Source: Meiothermus cerbereus DSM 11376
Lineage (GTDB): Bacteria; Deinococcota; Deinococci; Deinococcales; Thermaceae
Reading direction: 5' to 3'
Length of the DNA stretch: 64,000 nucleotides
Assembly: GCF_000620065.1 (NCBI RefSeq)
Contig: NZ_JHVI01000023.1
Span: 1-64,000 of the forward strand
Shown here: in pieces, positions 12,179-63,482 of the stretch
How positions within the stretch are numbered: the first letter of the stretch is position 1
Layout: each line of letters starts with the position of its first letter
Notes under the pieces: generated by a model
Told to the model about the DNA's origin: nothing
Database searches by the model: none
Seen by the model: the letters and a program-made list of their open reading frames with translations, nothing else
Position numbers and translations under genes: made by a program

Positions 12179-12207
12179 TTGACGTTTGGTATACCAAACT
12201 TTATACT
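12179..12207 (+). promoter_or_regulatory. Promoter of the leuC operon
   Basis: TTGACG and TATACT separated by 17 bases give a near-consensus sigma-70 promoter. The leader peptide ATG begins seven bases after the -10 box. Confidence 0.88.
12184..12199. promoter_or_regulatory. Palindromic operator in the leuC promoter
   Basis: GTTTGGTATACCAAAC is a perfect 16-bp palindrome occupying the spacer between -35 and -10, the classic position for a repressor. ACCAAA and TTTGGT recur just upstream (12126-12131 and 12144-12149). The regulator is unknown. Confidence 0.65.
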
Positions 12208-12214
12208 TTGGGCG

Positions 12215-12265
12215 ATGCCGACTCGGGTAAAGCAGCCCCTACTAAGCCCCGCTTCAGGGGTCTAG
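12215..12265 (+). CDS. leuL: Leu-operon leader peptide
   Basis: A 16-codon frame, MPTRVKQPLLSPASGV, begins seven bases after the promoter -10 box and is probably leaderless. Codons 9 and 10 are tandem CTA leucine codons, rare in this GC-rich genome, so ribosomes should stall there when charged tRNA-Leu is short. It lies directly before an antiterminator/terminator pair ahead of leuC, the standard layout of amino-acid attenuation. Too short for ordinary gene finders. Confidence 0.75.
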   Translation: MPTRVKQPLLSPASGV

Positions 12266-12310
12266 TTGCTGTACCGCACGACCCCAGGGCTAAAGCCGCT
12301 GGGGTTTTTT
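12257..12310 (+). terminator. Leucine attenuator: antiterminator and terminator before leuC
   Basis: The terminator is CCCCAG-GGC-TAAA-GCC-G-CTGGGG followed by six T (12282-12310). GGGGTC at 12257-12262, overlapping the end of the leader peptide, is complementary to GACCCC at 12280-12285, which holds most of the terminator 5' arm. Stalling at the CTA codons would leave GGGGTC free to pair and prevent termination; a ribosome reaching the leader stop would cover it and allow termination. Pairings are seen in the sequence; the mechanism is inferred. Confidence 0.75.
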
Positions 12311-12338: not shown

Positions 12339-13760
12339 ATGGGCAAAAGTTTGTACGAGAAAGTTTGGGAGAGCCACGCCATTCGCACCCTGCCCAACGG
12401 GCAGACCCAGCTTTTCATTGACACCCACCTGATCCACGAGGTCACCAGCCCCCAGGCCTTCGGTATGCTGCGCGACCTGGGCCTCAAGGTGCGCTTCCCC
12501 GAGCGCACCTTTGCCACCGTAGACCACATCGTGCCCACCCACTCCCTGCTCGAGCCCTTCGAAGACCCACAAGCCGACGAGATGATCCGCCAGCTTCGCA
12601 AAAACGTGCAGGAGTTTGGCATCACCTTCTTCGACGTGAACTCGGGGCTGCAAGGCATCGTGCACGTAATTGGCCCCGAAAACGGCATCACCCAGCCCGG
12701 CATGACCATTGCCTGCGGCGACTCCCACACCTCAACCCACGGGGCTTTTGGAGCGATTGCCTTCGGCATTGGCACCACCCAGGTGCGCGATGTGCTGGCC
12801 ACCCAGACCATGGCCGTCAGCAAGCTCAAGGTGCGGCGCATCAACGTAGAGGGCCAGCTTCGCCCAGGGGTCTACGCCAAGGACGTGATTCTGCACATTA
12901 TCAAAGTGCTGGGCGTAAACGGGGGCATCGGCTATGCCTACGAGTATGGCGGCAGCGTATTCGATAACTTCAGCATGGAAGAGCGCATGACGGTCTGCAA
13001 CATGAGCATCGAGGGCGGGGCCCGCATCGGCTATGTGAATCCCGACCAGACCACCTTCGACTACCTCAAAGGCCGCCTCTATGCCCCTAAGGGTGCGGCC
13101 TGGGACGAAGCGGTACAGCGCTGGAAGGCCCTGGCCTCCGACCCCGACGCCCACTACGACGACGTGGTCAACATCCGGGCCGAGGACATCGCCCCCACCG
13201 TAACCTGGGGCATCAACCCCGGCCAGGGCTGCGCCATCACCGAGCGGGTGCCCGACCCAGCCCTCTACCCCGAGACCGAGCGGGCCGCGCTGGAAGAGGC
13301 CCTCAAGCACATGAAACTGAAGCCGGGCCAGCCCATCAAGGGGGTCAAGGTGGACGTGGCCTTTTTGGGAAGCTGCACCAACGGGCGCATCTCTGACTTC
13401 CGCGAGGCCGCCAAATACCTCAAGGGCCGCAAGGTGGCCCCAGGGGTACGGGCCATTGCGGTGCCGGGTTCGCAGCAAGTGGCTAAGCAGTGCGAGGAGG
13501 AGGGCATCGCCGAAATCTTCCGCCAGGCCGGGTTTGAGTGGCGCGGCGCGGGCTGTTCGATGTGCCTGGCCATGAACCCCGACAAGCTGGTGGGGGACGA
13601 GCTGTGCGCCAGCAGCTCCAACCGCAACTTTAAAGGGCGTCAGGGCAGCGCCACCGGGCGCACCGTGTTGATGTCGCCGGTGATGGTGGTGGCGGCAGCG
13701 GTGACGGGCCGCATCAGCGATGCCCGGGAGGTGTTTGGCGAAGCCCTGGTGGGCACTTAG
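12339..13760 (+). CDS. leuC: 3-isopropylmalate dehydratase large subunit
   Basis: 473 residues. With LeuD it isomerises 2-isopropylmalate to 3-isopropylmalate in leucine synthesis. Aconitase-type 4Fe-4S ligands are visible in FLGSCTNGR and GCSMCLAMN, and the [16 protein letters not shown] motif is typical. ATG 12339 follows AAGGAGAG at good spacing. First structural gene behind the leu attenuator; leuD lies downstream after a Uma2 gene and a small membrane-protein gene. Confidence 0.96.
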
Positions 13761-13794: not shown

Positions 13795-14364
13795 ATGGTC
13801 TCAGATCTCAGTACCAAGAAGTGGAGTTTGCAGGAGTACCATCGCCTGGGCGAGGTCGGTCTGCTACAAGATGGGCGGTTTGAACTGATCAATGGAGAGA
13901 TTGTCGAGATGAGTCCGGTGGGCATTCGCCACAAGGATTGTGTGAGCCGGCTGGTTCGGGTGTTGGGCAAACGCCTGGCAGAGACAGCCCAGCTCGAGAG
14001 CCAGCAGCCGCTGGTGGTGGGTGGTGATGAGCTGATGCCCGATGTTTTTTTGTTGCGACCGAGGCCGGATTATTACGAAGGCCAGCATTTCAGTGCAGAG
14101 GATGTGCTACTGCTCATCGAGGTGGCCGAGTCTTCGCTCAAAACCGATCAGGAGGTCAAGGTGCCTAAATACGCCCGGCAGGGTGTGCCCGAGGTCTGGG
14201 TAGCGGATCTAGGCGGCGAGCGGGTCTGGGTGTACCGCCATCCTGCTGGGGGTGCCTATACGCATATCCAGGCTTACGGGCGCGGCGAGCGCATCCAGCT
14301 TGAAAGCCTGGGTGGTGTAGAAATCGGGGTGGACGAGGTTCTGGGAAAACCCCTGTCGGCGTGA
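13795..14364 (+). CDS. Uma2-family (DUF820) putative endonuclease
   Basis: 189 residues. The domain begins with the EYHRLGEVGLL and GEIVEMSPVG elements; the catalytic strands read MPDVFLLRP and LLIEVAESS, followed by K-V-x-K-Y-A-R-x-G-V-P-E-V-W, matching the PD-(D/E)XK Uma2 pattern. -10 TAGGCT ends six bases before ATG 13795, so it likely has its own leaderless promoter although it stands inside the leu gene cluster, 34 bases after leuC. Confidence 0.85.
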   Translation: MVSDLSTKKWSLQEYHRLGEVGLLQDGRFELINGEIVEMSPVGIRHKDCVSRLVRVLGKRLAETAQLESQQPLVVGGDELMPDVFLLRPRPDYYEGQHFSAEDVLLLIEVAESSLKTDQEVKVPKYARQGVPEVWVADLGGERVWVYRHPAGGAYTHIQAYGRGERIQLESLGGVEIGVDEVLGKPLSA

Positions 14365-14586: not shown

Positions 14587-16286
<1,700 letters not shown>

Positions 16287-17165: not shown

Positions 17166-18827
17166 ATGCGTTCGGACATCATCAAAAAAGGCCCTCAACA
17201 AGCCCCCGCCCGGGCCATGCTGCGCGCGGTGGGCATCGGCGACGAAGAGTTCAAGATTCCCTGGGTGGGCATCGTAAACACCTGGACCGAAGGGATGCCC
17301 TGCAACTTCCACCTGCGCGACCTGGCCGCCGACCTTAAGATTGGGGCCAAAGAGGCCGGCTTCCAGACCTTCGAGTTTGGCGCCCCGGCCATCTCCGACG
17401 GCATCAGCATGGGTACGGTGGGCATGCGGGCCTCGCTGGTGAGCCGCGAGGTGATCGCCGATTCGATTGAACTCATCGCCCAGGGCTACCTCTACGACGG
17501 CATGATAGCGCTGGTGGCCTGCGACAAAACCAACCCCGGGGCCATGATGGGGGTCATCCGGGCCGACGTGCCCAGCCTGGTGCTGTATGGCGGCTCCATC
17601 GCGCCGGGCATCCTGCACGGCAAAAAGCAGACCGTGGTCTCGGTCTTCGAGGCGGTGGGACAGTATGCTGCCGGCCAGATCAGTGAAGAAGAGCTGGCCG
17701 AGGTCGAGCGCACCGCCATCCCCGGCCCCGGCGCCTGCGGTGGGCAATACACCGCCAATACCATGGCCATGGTTCTGGAGGTGATGGGCTTCTCCCCCAT
17801 CGGCTACAACGCCATACCGGCCATCGTGCCCGAGAAGAAGGAAGCCGGGCGGCGGGCCATGCACATCCTGGCCGAGGCCATCCAAGCAGGCCGCACCCCC
17901 AAAAGCTTCCTAACCAAAAAGAGCTTTACCAACGCCATCGCGGCGGTAGCGGCCACCGGCGGCTCCACCAATGCGGTGCTGCACCTGCTGGCCGTGGCCA
18001 GAGAGGCCGGGATTAAGCTCACCCTGGAGGAGTTCGACAAAATCTCGCGCAAAACACCAGTAATTGCCGACATGCGCCCCTGGGGCCAGTACACCGCCTG
18101 GGAGCTGTGGGAAGCCGGGGGCATTCCGCTGGTGATCCGCCGCTTGATCGAGGGCGGGCTGATTGACGGCGACCAGATGACCATTACCGGCAAAACCCTC
18201 TGGCAGGAAACCAAAAACGCCAGAGAAACCAAAGGCCAGAAGGTGGTGGTCAAGGCCGAAAAAGCCTTCAAACCGGAGGGGGGTCTGCGGGTGCTAAAGG
18301 GCTCGCTGGCCCCAGACGGCGCGGTGCTCAAGCTGGCCGGAACCGAGACCAAAGTACACCGGGGGCCGGCCCGGGTCTTCGATGGCGAACAAAGCGCCAT
18401 GAAGGCCGTGCTCAAGAAGCAGATCAAACCCGGCGACGTGGTGGTGATCCGCTACGAAGGCCCCAAAGGCGCACCCGGCATGCCCGAGATGCTCTCGGTC
18501 ACCTCGGCCCTGGTGGGCGAAGGGCTGGGGCCTTATGTGGCCCTGGTCACCGACGAGCGCTTTAGCGGCGGCACCAAGGGCCTGATGATCGGGCACGTGG
18601 CCCCCGAGGCCCAGGTGGGCGGCCCTATTGCGCTGGTCAAGGAAGGCGACATCATCTCGATTGACTGCGACCGGGGCATCCTGAACCTGGAAGTCCCGGA
18701 AAAAGAACTCGCCAAACGGGCCAAAGCCTGGAAACCCCCCAAGCCCCACTACAAGAGCGGCCTGTTTGCCCGCTACGCCGAGCTGGTGAGCAGTGCGCGG
18801 GAGGGGGCGGTGCTCTTAAAGCCGTAG
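17166..18827 (+). CDS. ilvD: Dihydroxy-acid dehydratase
   Basis: 553 residues. Dehydrates dihydroxy-isovalerate and dihydroxy-methylvalerate to the 2-oxoacid precursors of valine, leucine and isoleucine. Cluster cysteines appear as [16 protein letters not shown] and [13 protein letters not shown]; the C-terminus shows [21 protein letters not shown]. Start ATG 17166 follows GCGAGG. It supplies the keto acid upstream of the leu genes, consistent with clustering. Confidence 0.97.
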
Positions 18828-61980: not shown

Positions 61981-62274
61981 CTACTGACCCCCCTTCGGCT
62001 TCCGCTCGAACATTTCCAGCATCCGCTCGGTTACGGCATAGCCCCCAGCAGCATTGGCCGCGCCCAGAATCACCCCAAAAAAGCCAATGGCCTGTTCTAA
62101 GGGTGTTTCGGCGTGGCCCAGCACCACCATAGCCCCCACCACCACAATGCCGTGGATGAAGTTGGAACCCGACATCAGGGGGGTGTGCAAAATAACCGGC
62201 ACCCGGCTAATCACTTCGTATCCGGTAAAAGCCGCCAACAAAAAGATATACAGCGCAGCCCAGGTTGAGTCCAT
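61981..62274 (-). CDS. pntA2: NAD(P) transhydrogenase subunit alpha part 2 (membrane)
   Basis: 97 residues with three membrane helices, corresponding to the C-terminal membrane segment of PntA; the split alpha1/alpha2 layout is usual in Thermus and Rhodospirillum. Sequence SRVPVILHTPLMSGSNFIHGIVVVGA is highly conserved. ATG 62274 shares one base with the pntA1 stop (TGATG). Confidence 0.95.
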   Translation of the reverse strand: MDSTWAALYIFLLAAFTGYEVISRVPVILHTPLMSGSNFIHGIVVVGAMVVLGHAETPLEQAIGFFGVILGAANAAGGYAVTERMLEMFERKPKGGQ

Positions 62275-63401
62275 CACGCACCTCCTACCAGCGCCCGGGT
62301 GGGCGCATGGGTGATCTCGCCTTGGTGGGTCAGAAGAGCCCCTGCCAGAATTTCGTCGCCCCAGTCGGGCGCAAGCTGCCCATCTTTGATAAGCAGCTTG
62401 GATAGGTTGTAGAGGTTTTTGGCGTACATCTCGCTGGCGTGCACCGAAAGCGCACTGGGCAGGTTCAAAGGCCCCACCACCCTGACCCCGCCGACCTCGA
62501 GGGTCTGTCCAGGCTGGGTTAGCTCGCAGTTGCCACCAGACTCAGCAGCCAGGTCTACAATCACCGCGCCAGGGCTCATGCGCTCCACCATGTCTTTGGT
62601 AATGAGGATGGGCGCTTTGCGGCCCGGAATCTGGGCGGTGGTGATCACCGCATCCATGCTGCCCACTTCTTTGGCCAGGGCCTCGTGCTGAATTTTCTTT
62701 TCTTCTTCGGTTAGCTCGCGGGCATAGCCCCCTTCGCCCTCGGCGCTGATGGGCAGCTCAATCACCTTGGCCCCCAGCGAAAGGGCCTGCTCGGCAGCGG
62801 CTTTGCGCACATCGTAGGCCCAGACGTTAGCCCCCAGGCGGCGCGCAGTGGCGATGGCCTGCAAGCCCGCCACCCCCACACCCATCACCATCACCTTGGC
62901 CGGACGGATGGTACCAGCGGCCGTGGTGAGCATGGGGAAGAAGCGGCTGCTCTCGCGGGCCGCAATCAGGGCCGCCACGTACCCGGCCACGGTGGCCTGG
63001 GAAGACAGCACATCCATGCTCTGGGCACGGGTGATGCGGGGCACCAGCTCCATAGCCAGGGCGGAAATCTTGCCCGTAGCCATGGCCTGCACCCGCGACG
63101 GGTTGCGGTGGGGGTACATCAGGCCCGCCACAATGGTACCGGGCTCGAGCTGGGCCAGGTCAGGCTCTTCCAGGGGCTGCACGGTAAACACCACCTGTGC
63201 ACCTTTGAATAGCTGGTCTCTGGTAACCACGTCAGCCCCAGCGTTGCGGTAAGCGTCGTCGCTGTAGTAGGCCTGGGCGCCTGCGCCCGTCTCGAGGCGT
63301 ACCGCCCAGCCTTCCTTGATCAGACGGCCCACTATCTCTGGCGTAAGCGCCACCCGGCGTTCGCCCGGGGCGGTCTCTTTGGGAACTGCGATTAAAACCA
63401 T
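62274..63401 (-). CDS. pntA1: NAD(P) transhydrogenase subunit alpha part 1 (NAD-binding)
   Basis: 375 residues, the soluble dI domain related to alanine dehydrogenase. PKETAPGERRVALTPE at the N-terminus, the VMVMGVGVAGLQAIATARRLGA Rossmann motif and the mobile loop region EGEGGYARELTEEE. GGAGG precedes ATG 63401; the open frame further upstream shadows the divergent SDR. Confidence 0.95.
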   Translation of the reverse strand: MVLIAVPKETAPGERRVALTPEIVGRLIKEGWAVRLETGAGAQAYYSDDAYRNAGADVVTRDQLFKGAQVVFTVQPLEEPDLAQLEPGTIVAGLMYPHRNPSRVQAMATGKISALAMELVPRITRAQSMDVLSSQATVAGYVAALIAARESSRFFPMLTTAAGTIRPAKVMVMGVGVAGLQAIATARRLGANVWAYDVRKAAAEQALSLGAKVIELPISAEGEGGYARELTEEEKKIQHEALAKEVGSMDAVITTAQIPGRKAPILITKDMVERMSPGAVIVDLAAESGGNCELTQPGQTLEVGGVRVVGPLNLPSALSVHASEMYAKNLYNLSKLLIKDGQLAPDWGDEILAGALLTHQGEITHAPTRALVGGA

Positions 63402-63454
63402 TGAACCTCCTATAAAAAACGTGCCGCAGCGTTGGTATACCTTCTCCGCAGGGA

Positions 63455-63482
63455 AGTATACCAGTGTGGGAATAGAGAGCAA
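63455..63482 (-). promoter_or_regulatory. Promoter of the pnt operon, with GGTATACC elements
   Basis: TTGCTC and TATACT lie 16 bases apart on the minus strand. The palindromic core GTATACC occurs here and GGTATACC again at 63434-63441, the same core as in the leuC operator. Confidence 0.65.

Follow-up and report, generated by a model that had tools for sequence, protein, structure and literature searches.

A predicted leaderless leucine attenuator with conserved CTA codons ahead of leuC in Thermaceae and related families

Introduction

The leuC gene of Meiothermus cerbereus is very likely preceded by a leucine attenuator, in which the supply of charged tRNA-Leu would be sensed at CUA codons of a leaderless mRNA, with probable repression by a GntR/FCD protein added in the Meiothermus-like clade. 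As a prediction the attenuator is well supported, since the leader frame, its codon restriction, its geometry, the mutually exclusive helices and the target genes can all be read from the DNA. The stretch analysed, called the window throughout, is 64,000 nucleotides long and belongs to a genome of 3.03 Mb (G000). This would be a classical case of leucine attenuation, apparently leaderless and using the same rare codon as the enteric bacteria, found in three families of an order rich in thermophiles.

Architecture of the leu leader

An earlier note on the window had proposed that a 16-codon frame with tandem rare CTA codons ends just where an antiterminator competes with a terminator ahead of leuC, and each of these parts is indeed there (Table 1). 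The two antiterminator arms, GGGGTC and GACCCC, are complementary, the second is shared with the terminator, and the TAG stop codon (12263-12265) follows directly on the first, inside the 5′ arm of the antiterminator. That account lacked the 1:2 hairpin, which completes a three-hairpin layout, as well as the palindrome in the promoter.

The promoter-like site scores 10/12, with 0.1 such sites expected in shuffled sequences. It ends at 12207, and the ATG of the leader stands 7 nt downstream of the -10 box with no Shine-Dalgarno sequence before it. As transcription usually starts 6-8 nt past the -10 box, the transcript would begin at or next to this ATG, and the message would thus be leaderless. 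Between the terminator and the start of leuC lies a Shine-Dalgarno-like AAGGAG. Past leuC, the Uma2 gene, leuD, leuB, an SDR gene and ilvD follow in this order on the same strand. The operon behind the leader serves leucine biosynthesis.

Table 1. Features of the leu region and of a second palindrome-bearing promoter, in window coordinates
Feature	Position	Strand	Remark
leu operon promoter, TTGACG-17-TATACT	12179..12207	+	same arrangement 5′ of leuC across the order
Palindrome GTTTGGTATACCAAAC in the -35/-10 spacer, putative operator of the GntR/FCD regulator	12184..12199	.	
Leader frame of 16 codons, predicted leaderless, MPTRVKQPLLSPASGV then stop	12215..12265	+	shared by relatives
1:2 hairpin spanning the Leu codons and the stop codon	12232..12272	+	89.9% of cells paired
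Putative sensing codons CTA CTA	12239..12244	+	in-frame conservation
Antiterminator 5′ arm GGGGTC, directly 5′ of TAG	12257..12262	+	complementary to GACCCC
Antiterminator 3′ arm GACCCC, doubling as terminator 5′ arm	12280..12285	+	
Intrinsic terminator GACCCCAGGGCTAAAGCCGCTGGGGTTTTTT, run of six T	12280..12310	+	fold
leuC (TIGR00170)	12339..13760	+	
Uma2-family gene (PF05685), between leuC and leuD	13795-14364	same as leuC	
leuD	14587..15192	+	
leuB	15234..16286	+	
ilvD	17166..18827	+	
Second GGTATACC of the window, in the promoter of the pntA-like gene at 62274-63401 (minus strand)	63434..63441	-	kept in 7 Meiothermus-type genomes

How much does a pair of Leu codons say by itself? When open 16-codon frames were shuffled, 0.4% of trials gave tandem CTA, and 11% gave adjacent Leu codons of any kind. 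Tandem Leu alone is therefore weak, and the case for an attenuator rests on conservation. The Rfam covariance models gave no T-box or other Rfam leader match in the leader.

Recurrence of the leader across the order

The comparison drew on the regions upstream of leuC in 50 Thermaceae genomes and in 40 genomes from other families of the order. Among the groups, g1 was read as Meiothermus and g4 was taken as Thermus, while g1-g3 together are called Meiothermus-like; f5 corresponds to Trueperaceae, and f4 is a related family whose MAGs were deposited as Thermaceae. The earlier note expected the same leader before leuC in other Thermaceae. It was found in every Thermaceae region examined (51 regions from 50 genomes), and its layout recurs in f4 and in most of f5, which brings the number of families to three. 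This common layout comprises a promoter, an ATG usually 6-10 nt past the -10 box (a spacing seen in nearly all relatives), a frame of 12-42 codons and, in most cases, a terminator. The three leuC regions of the family f3 contained no such leader. In one Thermus genome (G040) the same leader occurs twice upstream of leuC (L083, C4:2003-2758, and L079, C4:2013565-2014959), near both ends of one contig, a duplication that is probably an assembly overlap.

CTA as the putative sensing codon

The conservation of Leu codons in orthologous leaders, on which the earlier note had staked its proposal, turns out to be that of one particular codon. At least one in-frame CTA occurs in 75/76 distinct leaders, and CTA makes up 124 of their 210 Leu codons. 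It is as rare elsewhere as had been said, with 16/336 Leu codons (5%) in ten genes of the window and 11/1789 (0.6%) in the bodies of 41 leuC genes. A binomial figure for this enrichment takes no account of how the leaders are related, and no weight is placed on it. Reading frame matters as well: out of 128 CTA triplets in the leaders, 124 are in frame, leaving 2 in each of the other two frames. Thermus, with 27 sequences, keeps both CTA codons without exception, while the one that separates them may be GAC, TCC, CGC, ACC, GTC or CCC. The frame bias, together with the invariance of CTA beside a codon that varies, shows that it is as a codon that CTA is conserved. More generally, the codons neighbouring the conserved CTA drift among leaders. 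Some leaders have a single CTA only, and the last CTA lies 21 nt 5′ of the stop codon in 45 distinct leaders.

The only leader devoid of CTA, L054 (5′ of leuC in the genome G019), reads MPDRVKQILVSPA and has CTG; about 80 extra bases separate it from the terminator. It is perhaps a decaying attenuator.

Predicted switching between antiterminator and terminator

The two states were compared by masked folding, in which the RNA covered by a ribosome standing either at CTA or at the stop codon was removed. The footprint extended 12 nt downstream from the first base of the codon in the A site (9-15 nt were also tried), and folding was done at 37 and 60 °C. In 55/57 sequences from g1-g4 and f4, a ribosome at CTA left the 5′ arm of the terminator sequestered upstream, and a ribosome at the stop released it; the picture was not clear in Trueperaceae, where this pattern appeared in 7/18 sequences. 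As a control, the segment before the arm was shuffled, and the median fraction of shuffles performing at least as well was recorded. This control was strong in Thermus (0.01) and g2 (0.00) and suggestive in g3 and f4 (0.07 each). In g1 it was not significant (0.50); the metric there includes, in its average, segments of the arm that are not involved.

The antiterminator of G000 is small, with six core pairs only (-13.3 kcal/mol), and the predicted terminator hairpin reaches -17.5 kcal/mol (z -3.5). When the whole leader is folded, no state is more stable than the terminator, which wins at equilibrium, so the switch would depend on kinetics. Terminators are favoured at equilibrium in kinetic attenuators generally. 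The antiterminator arms are kept in 12/12 Meiothermus-type sequences and are nearly invariant there, which makes the absence of two-sided changes among these sequences uninformative as to covariation. Support for the switch comes from the comparison of lineages, whose arms differ in sequence yet remain complementary and keep their position with respect to the stop codon, and from the Thermus equivalent of the 1:2 helix, which does show two-sided changes.

A promoter palindrome and its putative regulator

The spacer of the leu promoter holds TTTGGTATACCAAA. Its exact 12-mer, TTGGTATACCAA, is present in the leuC promoter of all 22 g1-g3 genomes, and in 19 of them this is the single genomic copy. 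Among the g4 and g5 genomes a single one contains it, in one copy away from leuC, and the reversed control pattern had no occurrence in the genomes scanned. A second exact palindrome in G000 (C1:165982) has neither a promoter nor a clear target nearby. The shorter GGTATACC recurs in the leuC and ilvB promoters of Meiothermus-like genomes and 5′ of a GntR/FCD regulator gene; the Thermus promoters do not have it. The ilvB promoters that could be read in g1-g3 follow the form TTGACA-x-GGTATACCAA, with the same position in the spacer, and those readable in Thermus are without the GGTATACCAA pattern.

Scanning G000 with GGTATACCAA led to a site just 5′ of the start codon of a 215-aa protein, P0003, which carries the Pfam domains GntR and FCD. 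Orthologues with at least 62% identity exist in 20/22 g1-g3 genomes, the remaining two being many-contig drafts, 92% and 85% complete; in Thermus there is one more distant copy (56%), in 1/27 genomes. Shortly before the start of the orthologous gene, GGTATACC is found in 18/18 cases from g1 and g3 (18/20 overall), and it is absent before the start in the two g2 orthologues. It matches the FadR-subfamily consensus, both before the target genes and before the regulator gene. From this pattern of sites, both BCAA operons and the regulator's own gene are probably under the control of the GntR/FCD protein. It would most likely act as a repressor, because its site sits between the -35 and -10 boxes. 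This suggests that G000 has two controls on the operon, of which attenuation is one.

The window contains two copies of GGTATACC, against 0.3 expected. The second lies in the promoter region (63400-63470) of the pntA-like gene, downstream of the -10 box TGGTATACT, and makes this gene a possible further target of the regulator.

Could control then lie wholly in the promoter operator, with a terminator that is constitutive or reflects transcript trimming, and a small frame that is there by chance? The conserved palindrome and the co-occurring GntR/FCD regulator are what such a reading would predict, but we consider it very improbable: the palindrome is missing from leuC promoters in Thermus, f4 and f5, which nevertheless keep the leader and its CTA, and one codon would not be preserved in a chance frame.

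Nascent chain or codon?

A further possibility is that the leader encodes an arrest peptide, the stall being set by the nascent chain rather than by the reading of a codon. It finds its material in Trueperaceae, where 19 leuC leaders (L129-L165) carry RRRL (or RPRL, RKRL), mostly followed by R-V-I. The R and L positions of this motif use 4-6 codons each, and such variety indicates that conservation acts on the peptide rather than on the RNA. Exactly 14 residues past the first R, the codon is CTA in 19/19 of the motif-bearing leaders. As amino-acid and codon constraints sit at a fixed distance from each other, the nascent chain of Trueperaceae may help to place or time the stall at CTA, as this spacing suggests. 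For the leader as a whole, however, the chance that arrest replaces codon reading is slender. Thermaceae leaders have no peptide conservation beyond Leu, with drifting codons around CTA, and that Leu is always written CTA, not with any Leu codon, which points to reading by a tRNA.

In another rival, CTA is conserved for structure, as the partner of the UAG stop codon within the 1:2 hairpin, while leader translation senses nothing. It draws on the predicted G000 fold and the Thermus consensus, in both of which the second CTA (in G000) or its counterpart pairs with the stop; such pairing with a TAG stop is open to the CTA of many leaders. This rival is almost certainly wrong: stop-codon pairing as the cause of the conservation is ruled out by the in-frame bias, which a structural constraint would not produce, and by the leaders stopping at TAA or TGA, 17/18 of which retain CTA, and the first CTA of the tandem pair is not paired with the stop at all.

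Attenuation through the reading of CUA thus remains the preferred explanation, around which a graded family can be sketched. Thermaceae would have a pure codon sensor, Trueperaceae a hybrid of attenuator and arrest peptide (RRRLR-V-I) whose stall is tuned in the exit tunnel, and in the Meiothermus branch both BCAA operons would also answer to a GntR/FCD repressor of their own. We put this picture forward tentatively, and with less than even confidence. If the fixed spacing from RRRL to CTA is functional, codon sensing and nascent-chain control would be joined in one leader.

Other leaders encountered

A second apparently leaderless attenuator stands 5′ of ilvB in G000 (34583, G000:C15; L249:1330-1500). 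Its leader, MLLPSSLILVVVGLITRPTGDLV, contains CTA, GTA and ATT codons; the promoter has GGTATACC in its spacer, a terminator is present, and similar leaders lie 5′ of ilvB in the other Thermaceae read. Upstream of asd, encoding aspartate-semialdehyde dehydrogenase (L088:1459-1575, G000:C5), a promoter-like TTGACT-17-TATCGT precedes the frame ATG GTT TGG TAT ACC ACC ACT ACC TAA (MVWYTTTT) and then a terminator-like hairpin, making it a probable threonine attenuator. Ahead of trpE, leuA and a leuA-like gene of G000, no upstream frame had a qualifying promoter.

Proposed mechanism

The start site, the loading of ribosomes at the 5′ end, their positions and stalling, and the response to leucine are the parts of the model that we infer. 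Translation of the leader, with the place of the ribosome setting the fold, would agree with the frame bias of CTA and with the masked foldings. Transcription would begin at or next to the ATG at 12215, and a ribosome would load on the 5′ end of the message. If leucyl-tRNA for CUA is short, this ribosome would stall at 12239-12244 and cover the RNA to about 12254. GGGGTC (12257-12262) would then stay uncovered and pair with GACCCC (12280-12285) once the latter emerges, blocking the terminator and letting RNA polymerase enter leuC. When leucine is plentiful, the ribosome would get to the TAG at 12263 and cover GGGGTC; GACCCC would pair with its 3′ partner instead, and transcription would end at about 12310. 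In the Meiothermus-like clade, the GntR/FCD protein would probably also repress initiation through GTTTGGTATACCAAAC, between the -35 and -10 boxes.

Comparison with known systems

The leuL leader of Salmonella and E. coli, which has a run of four Leu codons, shares with the present one a CUA-containing leader peptide, alternative terminator and antiterminator structures, and leu genes downstream. The Meiothermus leader differs in being leaderless (as predicted), in having 16 codons with one or two CTA, in placing leuC first and in its putative spacer operator. The Salmonella leu leader has three CUA codons (PMC1183508), and exchanging CUA for CUG lowered its sensitivity (Carter et al. 1986, as far as cited in PMC1183508). 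Theory places CUA first among the Leu control codons of E. coli (PMC1183508), a result that a distant phylum now appears to bear out.

Leaderless leader peptides are known as well. The ilvBNC operon of Corynebacterium glutamicum has a leader peptide of 15 residues, with a start codon one nucleotide from the transcription start and a three-hairpin model (PMC11857589). It is thus alike in both respects, but it uses Val-rich branched-chain codons before ilvB, and in another phylum, in place of Leu as CTA before leuC. In Sinorhizobium meliloti, the transcript of the trpL attenuator starts at the ATG of a 14-aa leader and is a small leaderless mRNA (PMC7298713); there the codons are for Trp, not Leu, and the terminated RNA also acts in trans.

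Within the phylum, the leu operon of Thermus thermophilus has the same order leuC, leuD, leuB. A leader upstream of it was reportedly noted in 1998 by Tamakoshi and colleagues, in Gene, and the attenuator in Thermus may thus have been noted already at that time. In the literature collection searched, we found no paper on a leu leader of Thermus, Meiothermus or Deinococcus, nor on a BCAA GntR regulator of Meiothermus. The present analysis adds codon evidence from across the clade, a probable GntR/FCD regulon and the leaders of Trueperaceae.

As for the regulator, GGTATACC fits the FadR-subfamily consensus, GTM-N0-1-KAC with TKGT/ACMA boxes, in a survey whose table omits the Deinococcus-Thermus phylum (PMC4494728). 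NanR, a GntR regulator of the same subfamily, binds GGTATA repeats (PMC8012715). In contrast to FadR and NanR, the palindrome described here lies over the BCAA promoters of Meiothermus-like bacteria, for which a candidate BCAA regulator can now be named.
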